IMG/VR virus record: IMGVR_UViG_3300028581_001824
Location: 1-25,121 of that record
Source of the DNA: a virus
Direction: 5' to 3' (one strand)
Length of the DNA stretch: 25,121 nucleotides
Position 1 is the stretch's first letter. Each line of letters begins with the position of its first letter. The notes under the pieces were generated by a model. It saw nothing but the letters and a program-made list of their open reading frames with translations. It searched no databases and was not told the DNA's origin. The position numbers and the translations under genes were made by a program. Of this stretch, positions 875-19,840 are shown in pieces.

Positions 875-2167
875 ATGAAAACACTACGCGAAATGATGGA
901 TTTGATTGAATCTGCTCAGCCGGTAGATCTACGATCTCGTGCGGCAGAATTGGCCATACAAATACTCAAAAATGCCGATATGGACGATGACAGCGAACAA
1001 GGATACATTCGAGTTGATCCCAATGCCCTGTTTCAGTTTCATGTGCTCATGAACACAGCCAAAAAACAAGGTGTGGCGGAAAGCGAAAACAATGATACTG
1101 CAATAAGTTTGTCCAAGTTAGGTAAATTTCATCCTGGCGCAGACTCACTGGCCGAGTTTGTTCCTGAAAGAGCAACTGCACAATATGCCTTGCATCCAGA
1201 CAAATGGGAATCAACTTTTTACAGTTTGACCAACAAAGATTCTGACAAATTAAAATACTACGGTCCAAAAAAGATTTCAATTCCCCCGGGAACTTTAGTA
1301 GGCGACATGGCCATTGCCAACAAGTTTTACAGAGCCAAAACACCCGAAGAAAAACAACAGTATGCCGAATTGTATAAAGCATCACTACAGCCGTATCCAG
1401 TGGATGTTAGTGCGTATCGCATGCCTGAATTATTGATTCCTCGGCAAGGTGTGGCGGAGGGCTTTGGCAAATTAACCCCGCAACAAAAAGCACACGAATA
1501 TAATTTAGATTCAGCACAAAGAGAAATGGATCGTCGACATGCAGAAGGTGAAGATATGACTGGTGCTAAGATTGATAAAAAAACATATAAAATTGTTAAA
1601 CCTAAACAGCAAGGTGTGGCGGAAGGTCATGCAGACCAACAACGCAAAATCTTTAAGAAGAATGGTGAGCCAGTGGGTGAAGTTGGTATTGATAGAGAGT
1701 CAAGTCCCGGTAATGGTCAGTGGTATATGAAACATTATGCCAGTGATAAAGATTTGGCTGGGTATGATTCATATGAAGAAGCATTAGCAGAATTAAAGCA
1801 TTGTATGAAGCAAGGTGTAGCGGAAGCTGAAACAGATTACTCCAAGCGTCGCCAGCGTGAGCGTGATATTGATGCAGGTAAACCTGTAGCTAAACAACGT
1901 CCGAGCAAGATGACTGACTATCAGAAGCGTCGTGCTCAGCAAAAGAAAGAAATGGAACTTGGTGAAAGTAATGATGACAGTGGCGTTGAGCAAGCTATTA
2001 TCCGTCGTATCATGGTTGCACACAAAGACTTATTGTTGAAATTTGGTCCAGCTAAAATTATGCAGGCCGCAGAAGAAGTTGCTTACAATGTCGGCGATGT
2101 TGACGAGATTGGCACCAGTGATGTTAGTGCTTATGTTGCTCAAGTTCGACAGATACTTGGTGCCTAA
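875..2167 (+). CDS. mosaic protein with four QGVAE linkers; possible packaged internal protein
   Basis: A 430-residue hydrophilic protein made of unrelated segments joined by the linker QGVAE at residues 65-69, 191-195, 246-250 and 313-317. The N-terminus (MKTLREMMDLIESA) is a short amphipathic helix resembling the capsid-targeting leader of T4 internal proteins (MKTYQEFIAEA type, from memory). Segments include a compact block at residues 251-310 (GEPVGEVGIDRESS, WYMKHYAS), a very basic stretch at 318-362 (repeated YSKRRQ/YQKRRAQ) and a C-terminal helical module ending GDVDEIGTSDVS (407-418), which recurs in the next gene. No enzyme motif is seen. The T4 prohead protease gp21 cuts after Glu in L/I-x-E; the linkers (V-A-E) and the leader (L-I-E) fit that pattern loosely. 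The stop overlaps the next start as TAATG. Confidence 0.8.
   Translation: MKTLREMMDLIESAQPVDLRSRAAELAIQILKNADMDDDSEQGYIRVDPNALFQFHVLMNTAKKQGVAESENNDTAISLSKLGKFHPGADSLAEFVPERATAQYALHPDKWESTFYSLTNKDSDKLKYYGPKKISIPPGTLVGDMAIANKFYRAKTPEEKQQYAELYKASLQPYPVDVSAYRMPELLIPRQGVAEGFGKLTPQQKAHEYNLDSAQREMDRRHAEGEDMTGAKIDKKTYKIVKPKQQGVAEGHADQQRKIFKKNGEPVGEVGIDRESSPGNGQWYMKHYASDKDLAGYDSYEEALAELKHCMKQGVAEAETDYSKRRQRERDIDAGKPVAKQRPSKMTDYQKRRAQQKKEMELGESNDDSGVEQAIIRRIMVAHKDLLLKFGPAKIMQAAEEVAYNVGDVDEIGTSDVSAYVAQVRQILGA
1067..1825 (+). repeat. four dispersed copies of a 15-base QGVAE linker repeat
   Basis: Copies lie at 1067-1081, 1445-1459, 1610-1624 and 1811-1825. Two read CAAGGTGTGGCGGAA; one ends in GAG and one has GTA for GTG, so there is only one synonymous change per variant. 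The sequences around them are not similar. This near identity at codon level, including GCG, suggests recent spread or selection on the DNA itself as a joining sequence. Confidence 0.9.
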
Positions 2168-2555
2168 TGAGAGCTGAAGAGTTCCTGCCTGATATTACCC
2201 TGGGCAAACTAGAAAAAACTGGACAAGTGGTTCAGTTGATCAAACATGCAGACCAGGTAGGGTTTAGCGATGAATCAGGATGGCTGCTGATCAATATAGA
2301 ACCTGGTAAGAAATCCGGACCCAGCGGATTAGTAAAATGGATTCCAGATTCAACACGTTTTACCTGGGTTAAAAAATATCGCGGCAATGAACAACTAGAC
2401 GAACTTAGCTTTTTGGGTTCACCGTGTACCAAAGACTGCTCAGGACACCGTGCAGGCTACGACTGGAGCAAAGCTCGTGGCGATGTTGACGAGATTGGCA
2501 CCAGTGATGTTAGTATCTGGGTCAGAGAAGTAGCACAAATACTTGGTGCCTAATG
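2093..2555 (+). repeat. direct repeats joining the ends of two adjacent mosaic genes
   Basis: An identical 36-base sequence encoding GDVDEIGTSDVS lies at 2093-2128 and 2479-2514. An identical 17-base sequence, which includes the last codons, the TAA stop and the ATG of the following gene, lies at 2153-2169 and 2539-2555. Between the two blocks the copies have diverged. Each duplicated unit therefore carries a gene end plus the start of the next gene. Confidence 0.9.
2167..2553 (+). CDS. small mosaic protein: unique N-domain, CTKDCSGHRAGY tag and GDVDEIGTSDVS tail
   Basis: A 128-residue protein translated directly after the 430-residue mosaic gene (stop and start share one base, TAATG). Residues 1-75 look like a small beta-rich domain (GWLLINIEP, TRFTWVKKY). 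Residues 79-101 carry the module ELSFLGSPCTKDCSGHRAGY, which also ends the next protein. Residues 104-128 carry the GDVDEIGTSDVS tail of the previous protein. The gene is thus a hybrid that shares one module with each neighbour. The two cysteines and one histidine in the tag (C87, C91, H94) could bind metal, but this is unproven. The N-terminus MRAEEF resembles MRASDF of the next protein and may be a common leader. Function unknown. Confidence 0.75.
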   Translation: MRAEEFLPDITLGKLEKTGQVVQLIKHADQVGFSDESGWLLINIEPGKKSGPSGLVKWIPDSTRFTWVKKYRGNEQLDELSFLGSPCTKDCSGHRAGYDWSKARGDVDEIGTSDVSIWVREVAQILGA

Positions 2556-3185
2556 CGAGCATCAGACTTTGAAATACGCAATCACGATAAGTTAGACGAA
2601 ATTCTAACTCGTCTGTGCGAGCTGGTTATTCGAGGTCAGCAAAAAAATCAAGATCTTGGCATGGTTGCTGCCGCCGTACTTGATCCTATGAATAATTGTG
2701 TAGTAGGTATAAACTATCCTACTCGAGATAGTCGTCGTGTTCATGCTGAACGTGCCGCTATAGATAGTTATACTGCTAGATTTGGGCCAGTTCCGCCTGG
2801 TAGTATAATCGTTACAACCCTAAGTCCTTGCTGTCATCCAATGGAAGAACGTGCCGGAGATAACTGCCAAGAGTTAATTGAACTACACGGTATACATAAA
2901 GTCTATTGTGGATATAAAGATCCTACACAAGAACCTTCAAGAAAAACATTCCATACACAATTCACTCGTAATCCAAAAATACAAGCACTATGCCGAGCAT
3001 TTGCTGACACATTCCTTAAAGATGATCTCACTGAACTCAGCTTCTTAGGCAGTCCTTGTACCAAAGACTGTTCAGGTCATCGCGCTGGCTATGCCTGGAG
3101 TCAAAGCAAAGGCGGCCGTGTTGCCCAAAGTCCATTTAGCCCCAGCTTCAATAATGGTAGCCAACTACATGTGGATGGTAAGTAA
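2553..3185 (+). CDS. cytidine/riboflavin-deaminase-like domain fused to a phage modular tag
   Basis: A 210-residue protein. Residues 35-125 form a zinc-dependent deaminase domain: H64-A-E66 supplies a zinc ligand and the proton-shuttling Glu, and P92-C93 with C105 (TLSPCCHPMEERAGDNC) would supply the Cys ligands. The 12-residue Cys-Cys spacing is longer than the PCxxC of dCMP deaminases and closer to the PCSHxGRTPPC layout of RibD-type deaminases, so the substrate is uncertain (nucleotide, pterin or flavin precursor, or nucleic acid). Residues 161-183 repeat the CTKDCSGHRAGY tag of the preceding gene, and a Ser/Asn-rich tail follows. It starts by TAATG overlap with the gene before. Because it shares the tag and the late-type transcript, it may be a virion-associated enzyme (inference). 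Confidence 0.75.
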   Translation: MRASDFEIRNHDKLDEILTRLCELVIRGQQKNQDLGMVAAAVLDPMNNCVVGINYPTRDSRRVHAERAAIDSYTARFGPVPPGSIIVTTLSPCCHPMEERAGDNCQELIELHGIHKVYCGYKDPTQEPSRKTFHTQFTRNPKIQALCRAFADTFLKDDLTELSFLGSPCTKDCSGHRAGYAWSQSKGGRVAQSPFSPSFNNGSQLHVDGK

Positions 3186-3306: not shown

Positions 3307-3903
3307 ATGATTACTTACTATCTATATGTTAAAACTCATACCGTCACTGGTCTAAAATACTTAGGTCAGACTCGATGTAAAGATCCGCATGCATACCCCG
3401 GATCTGGCGACCACTGGACAAATCATCTTAAAAAACACGGGAAATTTTACACAACTGAAATTGTTAAAGAGTGTGCAAGTAACAGCGAAGTTGCACATTG
3501 GGGGAAGCATTATAGTAGTTTATGGGATGTGGTTGCTAGTAAGGAATGGGCAAATTTAATTCCGGAAGTTGGTGGTGGGTGGAATTTAGCAGGCGATTCG
3601 AATCCACAAAAAAGAAAAGCCGTCCGAGACAAAACTTCTGCTGGAATGAAAAAATATTTACAAGAGAATCCAGATAGAGTGGAAAAATTTACAGCATGGA
3701 GGAATACATTTTGGACTCCAGAAAAAATTAAAGAATTAAATCACGGCGGAAGAGGCACTGTTAGTGTAACTGATAAATGTGGTAACAGTCTTAGAATACC
3801 TAGCAATCAATATGCATTAGTTGATAAATCACAGCCCATGTCCCATTGGGAGTTTGTTCCAGTTTCGTCAAAAGAATCAAAGAAAAGAAGAAATTCACCT
3901 TAG
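3307..3903 (+). CDS. GIY-YIG family homing endonuclease
   Basis: A 198-residue free-standing endonuclease. The N-terminal GIY-YIG signature appears as YYLYVKTH (residues 4-11) followed by GLKYLGQT (15-22), with the typical downstream HLKKHGKFYTTEIVKEC segment. The C-terminal part is basic (KESKKRR) and probably binds DNA. Such genes spread by cutting alleles that lack them. The gene is flanked by short direct repeats (ACCGGTA at 3255 and 3905; CCTTAGGAC at 3270 and 3898), and possible remnants of a split gene lie on both sides. The start is chosen because the signature begins at once after the ATG; no Shine-Dalgarno sequence is seen and a late box abuts the start. Confidence 0.85.
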   Translation: MITYYLYVKTHTVTGLKYLGQTRCKDPHAYPGSGDHWTNHLKKHGKFYTTEIVKECASNSEVAHWGKHYSSLWDVVASKEWANLIPEVGGGWNLAGDSNPQKRKAVRDKTSAGMKKYLQENPDRVEKFTAWRNTFWTPEKIKELNHGGRGTVSVTDKCGNSLRIPSNQYALVDKSQPMSHWEFVPVSSKESKKRRNSP

Positions 3904-4316: not shown

Positions 4317-4388
4317 GTAGTAATACGAATCGCTCACATTACGAGCATGAATCAAGGTCAGTGGGCCATAAGCCACAAGGAGAAGAAT

Positions 4389-5018
4389 TTGAGTTATAGA
4401 AAAATTTGGGAGTCTTACAACGGCCCTATTCCAAAAGAAAAGGATGGACGTCGATATGAAATACATCATATCGACGGTGATCGAACTAATAACAACATTA
4501 ACAATCTTGTAGCTCTTACAATCCAACAACATTATGATATCCATAAAGCACAAGGAGACTTGGCTGCTTGTTTAAAAATTGGAGCTAAGATGAAAATGTC
4601 GCCAGCAGAATTATCTGCTATAGCAACAGCTAATAACCTTCAAATGGTTAAAAACGGAACCCATCCTTTTGTTGGCGGCGCGGTGCAAAAAAAATCTTCA
4701 AATAGACGAGTAGCCGACGGAAGTCATAATTTCTTAGATGGCACTATTTCAAAAGCTGTTCAACAACAGCGACTTAAAGATGGCACTCATAATTTTTTAG
4801 ATAGCAAAGCCGCCAGAACACGAAATATTTGTAGAGTAAAAAATGGAAGCCATCATTTATTAGGCGGTAAAGTGCAACAAAAACAACTGCTTGATGGCTC
4901 TCATTCTTCATGTAAAGAATGGACCTGCCCTCACTGCTCTATAGCAGGTAAAGGATCTACTAATGCCAAGAGATGGCATTTTGATAACTGCAAGGAAAAT
5001 CCCAATGTCGTATATTGA
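4389..5018 (+). CDS. HNH homing endonuclease with 21-residue GTHxF repeats and zinc-finger-like tail
   Basis: A free-standing HNH endonuclease inserted directly before the DNA polymerase gene. I choose the TTG at 4389 (209 residues) because AAGGAG sits six bases upstream and the protein then begins at the conserved YRKIWE...GPIP segment; the ATG at 4347 lacks a ribosome-binding site. The HNH core is YEIHHIDGDRTNNNINNL with a downstream HYDIH (residues 23-52). It is followed by four copies of a module starting G-(T/S)-H-x-(F/L), three of them 21 residues apart and the last 17, probably DNA-binding, and a C-terminal CPHC...H...C zinc-finger-like segment. The 3' end overlaps the polymerase start by 14 bases and contains its ribosome-binding site. 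Confidence 0.85.
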   Translation: MSYRKIWESYNGPIPKEKDGRRYEIHHIDGDRTNNNINNLVALTIQQHYDIHKAQGDLAACLKIGAKMKMSPAELSAIATANNLQMVKNGTHPFVGGAVQKKSSNRRVADGSHNFLDGTISKAVQQQRLKDGTHNFLDSKAARTRNICRVKNGSHHLLGGKVQQKQLLDGSHSSCKEWTCPHCSIAGKGSTNAKRWHFDNCKENPNVVY

Positions 5019-9375: not shown

Positions 9376-11073
9376 ATGACTCAAGATAACTTAACAGCCA
9401 AGCAAAACGATTTTGCTGTTTTTCTTCCGGCTATCAGTGGCTTCTATTCTACGTTTATTGGCAAGCAACGTGATCCAGTAAACGGACCTTATGTAGATCC
9501 TGCTCGTATGCCCGCAGGTCTTAAAGATATGGAGATGATGAATTGGCTAAACCCACAGAAAGGATTGTTTCCTTACAAGTGGTCATTATGCTCCGGCGGA
9601 CATGCTAACTTAGATCTCAATAAGCAAGACTGGTCGGAGGACATGGTTCGCAATCGTGATCCTGGATCGTTTATGTTGGGTGACTCGGGTGGGTTCCAGA
9701 TTGCCAAAGGATTATGGGAAGGCGAATGGCGAGACCCGACTAGTCCGGCAGTATTGGCTAAGATGGCCGAGGCAGTTGCCAAGGGCATCGAACATGTACC
9801 AGATCTAAAACCCGATGGAACTCCTAAGCATGATAAGAACGGCAATACCAAATATATCAAAATTGATCATGTTAAACAATATCAAAATCTATTAGATGCG
9901 GCGCAAAAGAAGCGCGATGCTGTTCTTAAATGGATGGATGGTATAGCAGACTATGGCATGATCTTAGATATTCCAACTTGGGTTATTCACGATAAGAAAG
10001 CCAGCAAGGCCTGTGGTATTACCACCTATGAAGAAGCAGTTGCGGCCACTAAGTTTAATAACGATTACTTCATGCAACATCGTAAAGGTGTAGCCAATGG
10101 CGGTGCCAAGTTCTTAAATGTATTGCAAGGGTCAAACCACGCAGAAGCAGACAAGTGGTACGATCTAATGAAAGACTATTGTGACCCTGCAAAATATCCA
10201 GACACACACTTTAATGGGTGGAGTATGGGTGGTCAGAATATGTGTGACATTCACTTGGTGCTCAAACGATTAGTGGCATTGCGGCACGATAACTTGTTAC
10301 AAGAAGGCGTTCATGATTGGATGCACTTCCTGGGCACAAGTAAACTAGAGTGGGCGGTATTATTAACAGACATTCAACGTGCTGTTCGTAAGTATGTTAA
10401 TCCTGCATTTACAATCTCGTTTGATTGTGCTAGTCCATTCTTAGCCACAGCCAATGGACAAGTGTACCATCATATCGATTTACCGCACAATGAAAAATGG
10501 TGCTATCGTATGAGTCCCATTGTGGATGACAAAAAGTACTCAGCCGACACACGACCATATGGTCCAACTGTGGTTGCTGAAGGATTTGTTAAACACTTTG
10601 ACGAAAGTCCAATTAGCCAACAGTTACAAATGAAAGATATTTGTATCTATAAGCCAGGTGATCTAAATAAGATTGGTAAAGAAGGCAAAACATCATGGGA
10701 TAGTTTTAGCTATGCATTGCTAATGGGTCACAATGTATGGATGCACTTAGAAGCAGTACAGCGAGCAAACCGTGAATATGACAATGGGTCGTGGCCTGCT
10801 ATGATGTGGAACCAAAATGGTGATCATGCTCGATTTAAAGATATTGTAGATGCGATTTTTGCCACAAGTAGTCGAGACGAAGCCGAAGCAATTATCGAAC
10901 ACTATGATCGCTATTGGATGGACATTGTAGGCACCCGTGGATTTAAAGGCAAGAAAACCAAAAATGCCAGGGCACAGTTTAACATTTTGTTTGATGTTGA
11001 AGAACCCGATGATGGCCTAGACGGTGATGAAATTGAATTAGATCAAAATAAATTAGACGCTTTGGAGGCATAA
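9376..11073 (+). CDS. dpdA: DpdA-like DNA-guanine transglycosylase (TGT superfamily)
   Basis: A 565-residue member of the tRNA-guanine transglycosylase superfamily. DpdA enzymes swap guanine in DNA for a 7-deazaguanine derivative, protecting phage DNA from restriction. Visible family motifs are GDSGGFQ (102-108) with the general-base Asp103, a substrate-pocket NVLQG (248-252, cf. GIVQGG in bacterial TGT), GWSMGG (281-286), HFLGTSK (317-323), and SFDCASP (348-354) where D350 corresponds to the nucleophile in FDCVxPTR. The CxC/zinc signature of tRNA-type TGT is not seen, favouring the DNA-acting branch. It is longer than tRNA TGTs (about 375 residues). The presence of folE and queD in the same window supports the DNA-modification role. 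The start lies four bases after the clamp stop; no ribosome-binding site is visible. Confidence 0.85.
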   Translation: MTQDNLTAKQNDFAVFLPAISGFYSTFIGKQRDPVNGPYVDPARMPAGLKDMEMMNWLNPQKGLFPYKWSLCSGGHANLDLNKQDWSEDMVRNRDPGSFMLGDSGGFQIAKGLWEGEWRDPTSPAVLAKMAEAVAKGIEHVPDLKPDGTPKHDKNGNTKYIKIDHVKQYQNLLDAAQKKRDAVLKWMDGIADYGMILDIPTWVIHDKKASKACGITTYEEAVAATKFNNDYFMQHRKGVANGGAKFLNVLQGSNHAEADKWYDLMKDYCDPAKYPDTHFNGWSMGGQNMCDIHLVLKRLVALRHDNLLQEGVHDWMHFLGTSKLEWAVLLTDIQRAVRKYVNPAFTISFDCASPFLATANGQVYHHIDLPHNEKWCYRMSPIVDDKKYSADTRPYGPTVVAEGFVKHFDESPISQQLQMKDICIYKPGDLNKIGKEGKTSWDSFSYALLMGHNVWMHLEAVQRANREYDNGSWPAMMWNQNGDHARFKDIVDAIFATSSRDEAEAIIEHYDRYWMDIVGTRGFKGKKTKNARAQFNILFDVEEPDDGLDGDEIELDQNKLDALEA

Positions 11074-12835: not shown

Positions 12836-13585
12836 ATGCCTCGCAGAAAAACCAAAGAAGAATTTATACAAGAAGCCATAGCGGTACACGGTACTAAGTA
12901 TGATTACTCTTTGGTTGATTATGTAAACAATAGAACCAAAGTAACTATAATCTGTCCTACACACGGTAAATTCTCAATTTCGCCAGCAGGGCATTCCTGT
13001 ATGAAATATGGATGTATTGAATGCGGCGGTACTCGTAAAAAGACAACAAACGAGTTTATAGAACAAGCCAATGCGTTACACAAACATAGATATGATTATG
13101 ACAAAACGGTTTATGTAAATCAAGAAACTCCAATATTTGTTAAATGTTTAACTCACGGCGAATATACCCAAACACCGTTTGAACATTTACACTCATTTGG
13201 GTGTCGAGAATGTGGCATTGTACAGCGAACTATTACTAAGATTGAAGCAGGATTGATTCCGCCCGATGTGCTTGACAAATCTGCGTATGAAGTGTATTAT
13301 CAACAAGTAAGACGCCTTACTAATCGTAGTTATAAACAGCACAAAGAAAAAATCAATCCTCTTAACTTAAAACGGGCACACCAAAATGCTAATCATTTAG
13401 ATCATATCTATTCGATAGTATATGGGTTTCACAATAATGTACCTCCAGAAGTAATAGGGCATTGGACTAATTTACGAATGACTAACGGGTTAGACAATTT
13501 AATAAAAAATAGTCGTTGCGATAAAACTTTAGAGCAACTATATGAAGATTACAATTTAATAGAAGGAATGTTATGCGAAAGCTAA
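12836..13585 (+). CDS. putative homing endonuclease with two DUF723 repeats and an HNH-like C-domain
   Basis: A 249-residue protein. Two tandem DUF723-type repeats of about 62 residues occupy 7-64 and 69-126: each has (E/F)FI..A...H...YDY...YVN...(V/I)..C.(T)HG.(F/Y)...P..H....GC.EC, with paired cysteines and histidines that suggest small zinc-binding DNA-recognition units. The C-terminal part, LDHIYSIVYGF, GHWTNLRMTNGLDNLIKNSRC, resembles the His-Asn-containing nuclease domain found behind such repeats in phage mobile genes. The gene ends 13 bases inside the following glycosyltransferase gene, whose ribosome-binding site it contains. No ribosome-binding site is seen before its own ATG. Confidence 0.75.
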   Translation: MPRRKTKEEFIQEAIAVHGTKYDYSLVDYVNNRTKVTIICPTHGKFSISPAGHSCMKYGCIECGGTRKKTTNEFIEQANALHKHRYDYDKTVYVNQETPIFVKCLTHGEYTQTPFEHLHSFGCRECGIVQRTITKIEAGLIPPDVLDKSAYEVYYQQVRRLTNRSYKQHKEKINPLNLKRAHQNANHLDHIYSIVYGFHNNVPPEVIGHWTNLRMTNGLDNLIKNSRCDKTLEQLYEDYNLIEGMLCES

Positions 13586-16391: not shown

Positions 16392-17216
16392 TTGACATCA
16401 TTTACATCAGAAGATAGAGAAAACGCTAAAAAATTAGTAGACGAAGCACCGTTTCATCCAGGCTATGAAGATGCCGCTATGGGTAATATCCTTGCAGGCG
16501 CAGAACAACAAGACAACGACAAAGATTATAAAGAAGCCAATCTAGCAGATGCTATTCGCTTTAACATGAAGCGTGATAAGAAACGCTTTTGGGCAGGCGA
16601 CAACATTAGTGAATATGTAGTTGGTCACAGAGATGAACTAATTGCAAATGCAACTGTGGCATTTGAAGGTGTTTTAGATGCCTTACTTATCGACCGCGAA
16701 AACGATCCTAACTCAAAGGGCACAGCTCACAGGCTTGCTAAGATGTACTACAAGGAAATTATGGAGGGCAGATATGCTCCAGCACCAGATGCAACAGCTT
16801 TTCCAAATGATAGTGAGGATCGATATGAAGGTATGTTGGTTGTGCGTAGTGAGCTCCGTAGTATGTGTAGTCATCATCATCAGCCTGTGTCTGGTGTTGC
16901 TTATATCGGTATTATTGCCGCTAACAAGCTCATTGGATTGTCAAAGTATACAAGGATCGCACAGTGGTGTGCTCGCCGTGGCACCTTGCAGGAAGAACTC
17001 TGTAACGATATCGCAAGAGAGATAATGAAGGCCACTGAGTCGGAGCACATCGGAGTCTATATAGAATGTGAACATGGTTGCTGTACCAATAGGGGCATAA
17101 TGGCACACTCAAGTTTAACTCAGACTACTGTATTACGAGGTGCGTTCCTTAAGGATCCTGGTACTAAGAAAGAGTTTTTTGATAATATTGCTTTACAATC
17201 AAGGAACGGCAAGTAA
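16392..17216 (+). CDS. folE: GTP cyclohydrolase I
   Basis: Converts GTP to dihydroneopterin triphosphate, the first step toward 7-deazaguanines (and folates). The translation has 274 residues; the enzyme core of about 190 residues follows an N-terminal extension of about 75. Zinc ligands are visible as C159 and H162 in RSMCSHHHQPVSG and C230 in ECEHGCCTNRG; GLSKYTRI (182-189) and AHSSLTQTT are typical active-site segments. The TTG at 16392 is chosen since GGAG lies seven bases before it and no earlier ATG exists; internal ATGs would still keep the catalytic core. It has its own sigma70-type promoter and is followed by the HIT gene. In phages with dpdA, folE usually feeds DNA modification, which is the likely role here. 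Confidence 0.93.
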   Translation: MTSFTSEDRENAKKLVDEAPFHPGYEDAAMGNILAGAEQQDNDKDYKEANLADAIRFNMKRDKKRFWAGDNISEYVVGHRDELIANATVAFEGVLDALLIDRENDPNSKGTAHRLAKMYYKEIMEGRYAPAPDATAFPNDSEDRYEGMLVVRSELRSMCSHHHQPVSGVAYIGIIAANKLIGLSKYTRIAQWCARRGTLQEELCNDIAREIMKATESEHIGVYIECEHGCCTNRGIMAHSSLTQTTVLRGAFLKDPGTKKEFFDNIALQSRNGK

Positions 17217-17604: not shown

Positions 17605-18300
17605 TCAACCCACTGTGGTCAGGTTCCAACCCTTAATAGATTTATACCTGCCGGTCATCATCGACGAAAAGTTTCCTATATTTAGGTTGTATTTTTTACG
17701 CATATCGTGCCTAGTGATATTTTTTTCAACCCTTCCATCATTATTTACAAACGTGTAGAGAGTAGGATCATAATGAGAATGCGTTTCTCCGGTGAAATGT
17801 TTATTTAGAAAAGGATGTGTTCCTGCTTTTACCATATCACTGGCAATAGTAGATCCATCTGCTCTACGGCAGAACGGATTTGTTCCATTCTTTACTCGGT
17901 CCATCGATGACGAACTACCATCTTTCCTGCGCTGTAAGGGATGTGTTCCTGCTTTTACCATATCGCTTGCTAGCGACGACCCATCTTCTCTTTTTTGAAA
18001 TGGGTGTGTATTTGTTTTAACTCGCAATAGAGCAGATTTTTTCATCAACTCAGATTGTTCATAGAGAGAATTATTCATTCGTTTTCCTAGTAACCAACAG
18101 GCACTATAGTCACCTTGTTGATAATGAATATCGTAATGATCTTGTATTGATAATGCTACTAGGTTATCTATTGAATTATTTTCTCTATTTCCGTCTTTAT
18201 GATGTATATGGTATCGCCGACCGGTTACATCTTTTAGAATAGGCCCAACATGATTTTCGTAGATTTTTCGATATTTGTTTGTGCCGCAATAAGTACACAT
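17605..18300 (-). CDS. HNH homing endonuclease with 21-residue repeats (inverted)
   Basis: The only minus-strand gene in the right 24 kb, placed between the HIT and queD genes. I choose the ATG at 18300 (231 residues) because AAAGGA lies nine bases upstream; an ATG at 18324 would add eight residues without a ribosome-binding site. HNH core: RRYHIHHKDGNRENNSIDNLVAL with HYDIH (about 28-59). Then three 21-residue repeats beginning THP(F/L)xxRxDGSS and a fourth partial copy (residues 99-165), followed by a C-terminal helix-turn-helix-like block (NITRHDMRKKYNL...GNFSSMMTGRYKSIKGW) of the NUMOD1/IENR1 kind that reads DNA. It belongs to the same family as the HNH gene before the polymerase. Opposite strand and intergenic position mark it as an inserted mobile gene. 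Confidence 0.85.
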   Translation of the reverse strand: MCTYCGTNKYRKIYENHVGPILKDVTGRRYHIHHKDGNRENNSIDNLVALSIQDHYDIHYQQGDYSACWLLGKRMNNSLYEQSELMKKSALLRVKTNTHPFQKREDGSSLASDMVKAGTHPLQRRKDGSSSSMDRVKNGTNPFCRRADGSTIASDMVKAGTHPFLNKHFTGETHSHYDPTLYTFVNNDGRVEKNITRHDMRKKYNLNIGNFSSMMTGRYKSIKGWNLTTVG

Positions 18301-18328
18301 GCTGATTGTTCCTTTCTTGAACATTAGA

Positions 18329-18426: not shown

Positions 18427-18939
18427 ATGGCAATCCAACCAGTAACATATAAATTCACTAGTACCAAAGAGTATGTAGATGCTTTCCCTGTGGCCTATCG
18501 CCAGTGGAAGGCCGATAGCCATTGTAACCTAATCCATGGCTATGCGTTTAGTATGAAGTTTTACTTTGGTACTAACGACCTGGACGTTCGTAACTGGGCG
18601 TGCGATTATGGCGGACTAAAAGAACTCAAGCAGGTTCTTGAGGACCAATTTGACCACACCACACTTTGTAGTTCCGATGACCCGGAACTTGATTGGTACA
18701 AAGAAGCCGAGAGGCGCGGCCTGATGAAATTGACTATACTACCAAAGTTAGGATGCGAGTCCCTCGCTGACTATCTTTACAAGTATGTCAATGGCGTTTA
18801 TATCCCAGATATGTGGGGAGAAGCCGAAGCAAAAAGACTTTGGTGCTATAGAGTTGAAGTCCGAGAGACCCAATCTAATATGGCATTTCGTGAAGGCCAT
18901 AGAGAATGGAACGAAGATTTATTTGTTGGTTTTGAGTGA
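18427..18939 (+). CDS. queD: 6-carboxytetrahydropterin synthase QueD-like
   Basis: Turns dihydroneopterin triphosphate (the FolE product) into 6-carboxytetrahydropterin, the second step to 7-deazaguanines. It has 170 residues against about 120 for E. coli QueD. Motifs: catalytic Cys in SHCNLIHGYAF (C33) with zinc ligand H37; FDHTTL (75-80) supplying the catalytic Asp-His; CESLADYLY (110-118) with the conserved Glu; RVEVRETQSN (142-151) with the pterin-binding Glu. The usual HGH is HGY here, so one zinc ligand is replaced by Tyr39; from memory this is common in phage forms. AGGAG lies six bases before the ATG, and the gene has its own promoter. Its last 30 codons are duplicated, with synonymous divergence, at 20393-20482. 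Confidence 0.85.
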   Translation: MAIQPVTYKFTSTKEYVDAFPVAYRQWKADSHCNLIHGYAFSMKFYFGTNDLDVRNWACDYGGLKELKQVLEDQFDHTTLCSSDDPELDWYKEAERRGLMKLTILPKLGCESLADYLYKYVNGVYIPDMWGEAEAKRLWCYRVEVRETQSNMAFREGHREWNEDLFVGFE

Positions 18940-18979: not shown

Positions 18980-19840
18980 ATGTATTATGGATTTATTTAC
19001 GAATGGACCAATATGCTTAATGGTAAAAAGTATATTGGTTCTCACGCAGGCACAATAGATGATGGTTATATCGGTTCAGGTAAAGTTTTTCAACGGGCTA
19101 TCAAAAAGCACGGTATTGAGAACTTTACAAGAGCCATTATTGAGTATGTTGAAGTAGAAGATAGACAATATCTTTTACAGCGTGAAAAGTTTCATCTGGA
19201 CGAAGTCAATGCTTACTACTCTGCCGACTATTACAATGTAGCCAAAGATGTTATCGGCGGTGATACTAAGGCAGGGTGGACTGACGAACGCAGGCAAGAG
19301 TTTAGTAATCAAATCAAACAAATCTGGGCAAATAGAACAGAAGAAGAAAAGCAAGAGATTTTGAGCAGAACCCACACAAAAACTAAAGAATGGTTTCAGT
19401 CCGAAGAAGGTGAGCAGTTTAAGGAAAAGTTGCGTGGTAATATACCTAACATGATTGCAGGTGTTAAAGCACGTGACCTGGAAGATAGAAAGCGTAGTGC
19501 CCGTTTAGGTAAAGAGCGTATGGGTGCTGAACGCAGAAAAGAGGTCGCCCGCAAGGGTGTAGAGAATCGTAATCCCAAAACTGAAGCATTAGCAAGACAA
19601 CAGGCCAAAGAAACAAGAGCAAACTGGTCAGAAGAAAAGCGTAAAGAAGTATTTGAGAATAGCAGTAAAGGTAGAAAAGGTAAATGTGCTGGTAGTGAGA
19701 ACGGAAGGGCAAGAAAGATTGTTGCCGAGTCCAGAACATTTGACACATTGAAAGATGCTATGCTACAATTGAATATATCTGAATACAAACTACATAGTAG
19801 ATTGAAAGATCCAAATAACAAGGAATATTATTACCTATGA
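18980..19840 (+). CDS. GIY-YIG homing endonuclease (long, SegA/I-Tev-like)
   Basis: A 286-residue endonuclease. GIY-YIG motif: GFIYEWTNMLNGKKYIGSH (residues 4-22), then GYIGSGKVFQRAIKKHGIENFTRAIIEYV, the standard first helix with its Arg/Lys, and an E in the following helix (LLQREKFHLDE). Residues 115-235 are long, charged, Arg/Lys/Glu-rich helices (repeated R-K-E-V patterns) that act as linker and DNA-binding arm. The C-terminal 45 residues (ARKIVAESRTFDTLKDAMLQLNISEYKLHSRL) resemble a NUMOD/IENR1 helix-turn-helix. It has a late promoter and AAAGGA six bases before the ATG. It heads a three-gene cassette placed between the true end of queD and a second queD end. Confidence 0.9.
   Translation: MYYGFIYEWTNMLNGKKYIGSHAGTIDDGYIGSGKVFQRAIKKHGIENFTRAIIEYVEVEDRQYLLQREKFHLDEVNAYYSADYYNVAKDVIGGDTKAGWTDERRQEFSNQIKQIWANRTEEEKQEILSRTHTKTKEWFQSEEGEQFKEKLRGNIPNMIAGVKARDLEDRKRSARLGKERMGAERRKEVARKGVENRNPKTEALARQQAKETRANWSEEKRKEVFENSSKGRKGKCAGSENGRARKIVAESRTFDTLKDAMLQLNISEYKLHSRLKDPNNKEYYYL

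Follow-up and report, generated by a model that had tools for sequence, protein, structure and literature searches.

An in-frame DNA repeat encoding QGVAE joins exchanged modules in putative head-cargo polyproteins of T4-superfamily phages

A modular gene and its surroundings

The window studied here is a 25,121-nucleotide stretch of viral DNA (IMG/VR record IMGVR_UViG_3300028581_001824). Near its start lies an open reading frame (ORF) whose product contains the pentapeptide QGVAE four times (at 1067, 1445, 1610, and 1811). The 15-base sequences that encode it are near identical (CAAGGTGTGGCGGAA, then copies ending in GAG and GAA, then CAAGGTGTAGCGGAA), with a single third-position change in each of two of the four copies, as stated in the original prediction, which was made without database searches. 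We refer to this repeat as the seam and to the segments that it joins as modules. The features of the locus are as follows.

875..2167, plus strand: ORF of 430 residues, a modular seam protein and putative head-cargo polyprotein
875..910, plus strand: MKTLREMMDLIE, N terminus resembling a capsid-targeting sequence, its last residues being LIE (hydrophobic-x-Glu), judged from the N-terminal motif statistics of seam ORFs
1067..1081, plus strand: seam 1, QGVAE (CAAGGTGTGGCGGAA)
1082..1444, plus strand: module M1, 121 residues, a confidently predicted globular domain, present in 64 IMG/VR loci in varying contexts
1445..1459, plus strand: seam 2, QGVAE (CAAGGTGTGGCGGAG)
1460..1609, plus strand: module M2, 50 residues, flanked by two seams
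1610..1624, plus strand: seam 3, QGVAE (CAAGGTGTGGCGGAA)
1625..1810, plus strand: module M3, 62 residues (GHADQQ..HCMK), predicted small beta-beta-beta-beta-alpha domain, present in 42 IMG/VR loci
1811..1825, plus strand: seam 4, QGVAE (CAAGGTGTAGCGGAA)
1826..1966, plus strand: module M4, 47 residues, recognized by the contexts of TDYSKRR, with an LGE junction (1958-1966) at its end
1967..2164, plus strand: module M5, C-terminal domain with the end GDVDEIGTSDVS..QILGA, present in 65 IMG/VR loci
2167..2553, plus strand: neighboring ORF, an associated modular gene with an M5 tail and a SPCTKDCSGHRAGY tail, by DNA tail identity
2553..3185, plus strand: cytidine/dCMP deaminase (PF00383, E = 1.3e-09) fused via an LTE junction to a C-terminal SPCTKDCSGHRAGY module, for which the junction rule described below holds in 8/8 contexts

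At three or fewer mismatches, the 15-mer has five matches, against 1.19 expected, and five were reached in none of 100 shuffles. The segments separated by QGVAE are mutually unrelated (best blastp E value, 0.18), as had been claimed. A fifth junction, overlooked in the original prediction, is the LGE at 1958-1966, which is hydrophobic-x-Glu and whose DNA is unrelated to the seam. M1 and M3 are each predicted to fold independently (AlphaFold2 pLDDT of 88 and 78, respectively), and neither predicted fold has a significant match in the PDB. The sole match of M1 is an 884-residue phage protein. Neither Pfam nor PHROG has a match for the complete protein, which also has no relative among 50,697 isolate phage records; M3, a marine relative of M1, and a paired seam probe likewise found no match in isolate phages.

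The three adjoining ORFs have related tails. That of ORF 2167-2553 is 80% identical to the tail of ORF 875-2167 over 76 bp of DNA, and 79% identical to that of ORF 2553-3185 over 75 bp. As these duplicated tails have drifted while the linker is frozen, the contrast with synonymous sites that was originally drawn is real. About 36 bases (GGCGATGTTGACGAGATTGGCACCAGTGATGTTAGT) are identical in two of these adjacent genes (2095-2130 and 2481-2516) and are followed by a common ATACTTGGTGCCTAATG end, the mark of gene conversion or of a tail that was duplicated recently. Deaminase-like genes resembling 2553-3185 often lie downstream of an M5-bearing gene elsewhere (e.g., on contigs L212, L227, and L249).

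Several other features of the window deserve mention. ORFs at 9376-11073, 16392-17216, and 18427-18939 between them encode GTP cyclohydrolase I, a 6-pyruvoyl-tetrahydropterin synthase/QueD-like enzyme, and a 565-residue protein. The last has a transglycosylase-like GDSGGFQIAKG motif, spotted by eye, and no match in Pfam or NCBIfam; together the three look like a 7-deazaguanine DNA-modification set. Five ORFs (3307-3903, 4347-5018, 12836-13585, 17605-18324 on the minus strand, and 18980-19840) match or resemble homing-endonuclease families (GIY-YIG, HNH/HNH_3, and DUF723), and the two HNH ORFs have repeated THPF/DGS-type tails. A NATAAATA-type box occurs within 60 bp upstream of 20% of seam ORFs and 8.5% of other ORFs, and GATAAATA lies just upstream of position 875. 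The box may, on this slight evidence, be a variant late promoter; for the strict form TATAAATA, the difference between seam ORFs and other ORFs is not significant.

Exchange of modules at a repeat constrained as DNA

A search beyond the window, as originally proposed, showed that numerous phages carry the repeat, in numerous genes. At least 120 IMG/VR stretches contain the 18-mer CAAGGTGTGGCGGAAGGC, whereas none contains its letters in reversed order, and each of the 204 exact copies checked is in an open frame that translates it as QGVAEG. A scan of IMG/VR with a 14-mer returned at least 119 stretches, about 110 of which have (Q/K/E/R)GVAE in open frames, many with two to eight copies that separate different segments. 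Each of 26 long contigs carries 1 to 19 near-exact copies, which are clustered and lie on one strand per cluster. One copy (L049:2900-2917) is gene terminal, with QGVAE followed directly by TAA, and may be what remains after the loss of a C-terminal module. Across 85k bacterial and archaeal genomes, the 18-mer was found in 26 stretches, one copy apiece, many of them in actinomycetes and other mutually unrelated bacteria; we take these single matches as chance and reject a bacterial or prophage origin of the seam. Among the literature matches listed for QGVAE, nearly all concern alpha-synuclein, and none, by title, concerns phages. The window gene is one member of a large modular gene family of T4-superfamily (often jumbo), mostly freshwater phages. 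Comparison of the window's DNA polymerase, and of the capsid of one seam-bearing contig (G002), with isolates points to jumbo members of the T4 superfamily, PA5oct and Phosso among them, as the nearest.

Modules are exchanged, duplicated, and lost at the seam. The 42 M3 loci, found by protein search with the seam playing no part in their selection, give this module 23 different neighbors on its upstream side and 27 on its downstream side. Pairwise DNA identity among them is mostly 0.7 to 1.0 inside the module (at constrained positions), is high over the seam, and drops at the seam edges to 0.27 beyond. M1 and M5, too, adjoin many differing neighbors. The most direct case is a pair of contigs (L142 and L145) with 99.9% identity across 8 kb, apart from a single exact M3 duplication of 201 bp that only one of them has. 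At the new junction, CAAGGTGT-CGCAGAAGGT, the left part derives from the downstream seam and the right part from the upstream seam, and this hybrid places the crossover inside the seam. A wider screen listed 21 pairs with an indel breakpoint at the seam (including L136/L143, L134/L135, and L273/L287), of which 19 are in frame, mostly with 16 to 18 bp of overlap; the pairs are partly nonindependent and represent about five separate events by our reading. Metagenome contigs could hide misassemblies, yet the same module orders recur across samples (L150-L153 and L143/L144). The proposal that the DNA repeat is a joining point for module exchange is thus borne out, as breakpoints map to the repeat and module neighbors vary.

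The seam is also constrained as DNA. We counted codons in 119 nonredundant GVAE contexts, from which redundant contexts had been removed beforehand and whose loci were picked by module protein only. GGT is used in 113, GTG in 96, and GCG in 100 of the 119, against background frequencies of 0.44, 0.21, and 0.08, and the exact triple GGT-GTG-GCG occurs in 86, where 0.9 would be expected. Codon preference above background amounts to 1.25 bits per residue for GVAE, in a set that includes seam-selected loci, and to 0.04 for L(D/N)E junctions. Among the M3 loci, fourfold sites within the module are 55% identical and the seam is 74% identical, and seam identity is independent of module divergence. 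Since the seam codons are constrained while those of L(D/N)E junctions are free, and since seam identity is not tied to module divergence, selection on protein alone does not explain the seam, as had been suspected. Module order varies while linker codons are conserved far above expectation, the reverse of a fixed order with freely varying codons. The system makes DNA-level selection acting on a protein-coding linker open to test.

Hydrophobic-x-Glu junctions and candidate head cargo

Nearly every module type examined begins after hydrophobic-x-Glu, of which GVAE is one case. Counted over distinct contexts, this motif directly precedes KWSQKYK in 10/10, SPCTKDCSGH in 8/8, LKKWF in 14/15, and GHADQQ in 23/24, where 1.5% would be expected per site, and it stands just before the TDYSKRR anchor of M4 in 8/9. 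For CYKKVKSRY it is found, anywhere in 16 residues, in 13 of 14 contexts; for two looser anchors (a CW motif and a CGG motif) the values are 44 to 45% at a fixed offset and 73 to 90% anywhere in 16 residues. Upstream of M5, it ends the great majority of the junctions listed, despite differing neighbors. This is the likely protein-level reason for QGVAE, which the original prediction missed: the peptide is a variant of the hydrophobic-x-Glu junction, and that junction fits the site cut by the T4 prohead protease.

The same motif marks the N termini of seam proteins. Within residues 6 to 18 it occurs in 84 of 118 seam ORFs and 378 of 1172 others (71% versus 32%; p = 4e-16), and the difference was replicated in new loci (31/46 versus 127/431; p = 7e-7). 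It peaks at residues 8 and 9 (e.g., MKANEFITE and MIIDDLFE), with E at residue 8 in 28% of seam ORFs versus 5%. The remaining 29% of seam ORFs have no such motif in the tested range, start codons having been assigned mechanically. In T4, L/I-X-E is the motif behind which gp21 cleaves, and ten N-terminal residues of IPIII are enough to bring cargo into the head (PMC9026906). Long seam-bearing contigs encode homologues of gp21, gp22, and gp23; PF03420 (gp21-type protease) was found in 11 and PF07068 (gp23 shell) in 5 of the long seam-bearing records, and neither was seen in the 25-kb window, which is a genome fragment. We infer that a gp21-type protease cleaves at VAE; the main weakness of this reading is the V that the seam has where the T4 consensus has L/I. 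Genes that look Dps/ferritin-like by eye recur beside seam genes (e.g., L029:5173-5604, L144:4957-5391, and L153:4305-4736). Many other neighbors of seam genes start with MRAxEF(I/L)xE, which suggests a far wider set of head-targeted proteins.

The domains found in seam proteins include GNAT, PARP-like, nucleotidyltransferase, deaminase, and T7-type kinase domains, along with many modules without an assigned function. One micro-domain, CYKKVKSRYSVWPSAYASG, is common to seam proteins and to the cyanophage proteins syn9 gp114, P-SSM2_123, and S-SCSM1 gp029, whose boundaries are also hydrophobic-x-Glu and which lack the DNA seam. The S-SCSM1 record labels gp029 a "virion protein," and in the S-SCSM1 paper 45 virion proteins are reported from mass spectrometry. 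The P-SSM2 relative is noted as "similar to Synechococcus phage S-SM1 protein," a remark otherwise found, in the stretch examined, only on the virion proteins gp3, gp13-15, gp18-21, and gp23; its counterpart was probably in the S-SM1 virion proteome (PMC3037559). The record of S-SM1's own relative says "hypothetical protein." As the seam family has no isolated representative, the case for packaging of seam proteins in the head, and for their injection, is drawn from these distant cyanophage relatives.

Proposed mechanism and known systems

We think it probable, at about two chances in three, that seam genes encode head-packaged cargo polyproteins that are processed by a gp21-type protease and shuffled by general recombination at a seam encoding the cleavage site. 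One repeat of 15 to 18 bases may be recombination seam and protein scissor mark at once. The protein, a capsid-targeting-like peptide followed by a string of small independent domains, would be drawn into the prohead, where the phage's own gp21-type prohead protease would most likely cut after hydrophobic-x-Glu and leave the cargo domains as separate units within the head, ready to be injected. The junction type (Q/K/E)GVAE would also be kept near constant as DNA (AAGGTGTGGCGGAAG), and its copies would serve as short, directional, in-frame repeats for duplicating, deleting, and swapping modules, with products such as those described above. Exchange would proceed by phage general recombination, through either UvsX-type strand exchange or single-strand annealing. 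Since the cleavage site is spelled by the repeat, nearly any exchange would give an in-frame, processable polyprotein, and this guarantee of frame and processability, together with continual exchange, would keep the seam DNA uniform. RecA/UvsX was found in 13 of 22 long records. A length of 15 to 18 bp is short for RecA-type exchange, which counts against general recombination as the mechanism. A more ambitious formulation, to which we would give somewhat less than an even chance, is an in-frame cassette system specific to phages, where a single short DNA sequence is both a dedicated seam recognized as DNA and a set of protease-site codons, so that combinatorial polyproteins of injected effectors are built from a shared environmental pool of modules.

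The strongest rival would make the seam the recognition site of a dedicated enzyme, a homing-type endonuclease or an unrecognized recombinase, whose cuts at GGTGTGGCGGAAG would set modules in motion, a role for the site like that of attC in integrons. We regard this as unlikely, with perhaps one chance in five. It would suit a DNA sequence that is near invariant over 13 to 18 bp, nonpalindromic, and strictly directional, as well as the five homing-endonuclease-like ORFs of the window. However, neither a tyrosine recombinase (PF00589) nor a serine recombinase (PF00239) was found in any of 22 long records (0/22 each), so we reject an integrase or resolvase as the shuffling enzyme; moreover, with as many as 19 sites present, such a nuclease would attack the genome that encodes it, and seam variants with one or two base differences persist.

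Far less probable is the idea that modules and seam are selfish in-frame mobile elements, like the Rickettsia palindromic elements, that are merely tolerated and whose peptide reading has no function. Their occurrence in many unrelated host genes and contexts, their unit-wise movement, and the presence of up to 19 copies per genome would fit such elements, but every exact copy checked lies in an open frame, hydrophobic-x-Glu is also obeyed at junctions without the DNA seam, and the modules are conserved folded domains, some with enzyme matches. Least probable, and already contradicted, is ordinary mosaic evolution, in which QGVAE is a mere linker peptide and its codons are alike through recent shared ancestry: phage mosaicism is common (PMC10684548) and some loci are near-identical relatives, but redundant contexts were out before codons were counted, the seam stays more alike than fourfold sites within modules regardless of module divergence, and LDE/LNE junctions of the same kind show no codon constraint.

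If the cargo polyprotein reading is correct, phages diversify injected proteins not only through whole-gene swaps but also by trading cargo units smaller than a gene, much as exons are exchanged, and frame and cutting site are always kept. The modules would form a large pool of uncharacterized putative host-takeover or antidefense functions, and hydrophobic-x-Glu, often as GVAE, offers a simple rule by which many aquatic phage proteins that lack annotation can be divided into their single domains. To our knowledge, a recombination repeat that doubles as the code for a cleavage site has not been described in any system, and the literature searched held no example.

Like the internal head proteins of T4 (IPI-III and Alt; PMC9026906), seam proteins combine an N-terminal peptide of 8 to 15 residues ending in hydrophobic-x-Glu with variable cargo, in phages that encode a gp21-type protease. 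The T4 proteins, however, are separate single-cargo genes, whereas seam proteins have many cargoes per polypeptide with internal junctions, one type of which is conserved as DNA. The cyanophage T4-GC 119 proteins (syn9 gp114, P-SSM2_123, and S-SCSM1 gp029) are similarly built from CYKKVKSRYSVWPSAYASG and other micro-domains bounded by hydrophobic-x-Glu; unlike seam proteins, the examples examined show no GVAE DNA seam and a more fixed domain order. Polyvalent proteins of phages and conjugative elements also hold several unrelated effector-like domains per polypeptide (GNAT, PARP/ART, etc.), and packaging, injection, and proteolytic release have been proposed for them; in contrast to seam proteins, they often contain a built-in peptidase domain, and their description mentions no short recurring DNA seam (Iyer et al. 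2017, PMC5512222). In the seam system the site of the general prohead protease would serve instead, with shuffling at that site, and none of the polyvalent domain set (MPTase, MuF, DarA, and ParB/DdrB) is among the 25/28 Pfam families listed for 55 seam proteins.

On the side of exchange, the seam lies inside open frames in all 204 copies, where a PeSL consists of an intergenic early promoter and stem-loop. In the PeSL regulatory cassettes and internal-protein locus shuffling of T-even phages, short conserved repeats reportedly flank the exchanged units. PeSLs are promoter/terminator units located between genes, which they move as a whole, whereas the seam is within the reading frame and encodes peptide. 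Integron gene cassettes are likewise head-to-tail units joined via a recurring directional site, but in the seam system no integrase and no palindromic attC-like site were found, and the units are sub-gene and in frame. The phrase "cassette shuffling" in the original prediction therefore holds as a description of the pattern and not in the sense of an integron-like dedicated recombinase; as the defining enzymes were looked for and not found, we do not place the seam system in the integron or resolvase families. In function, seam proteins would appear to work like T4 internal proteins and polyvalent proteins, and in evolution like cassette arrays.
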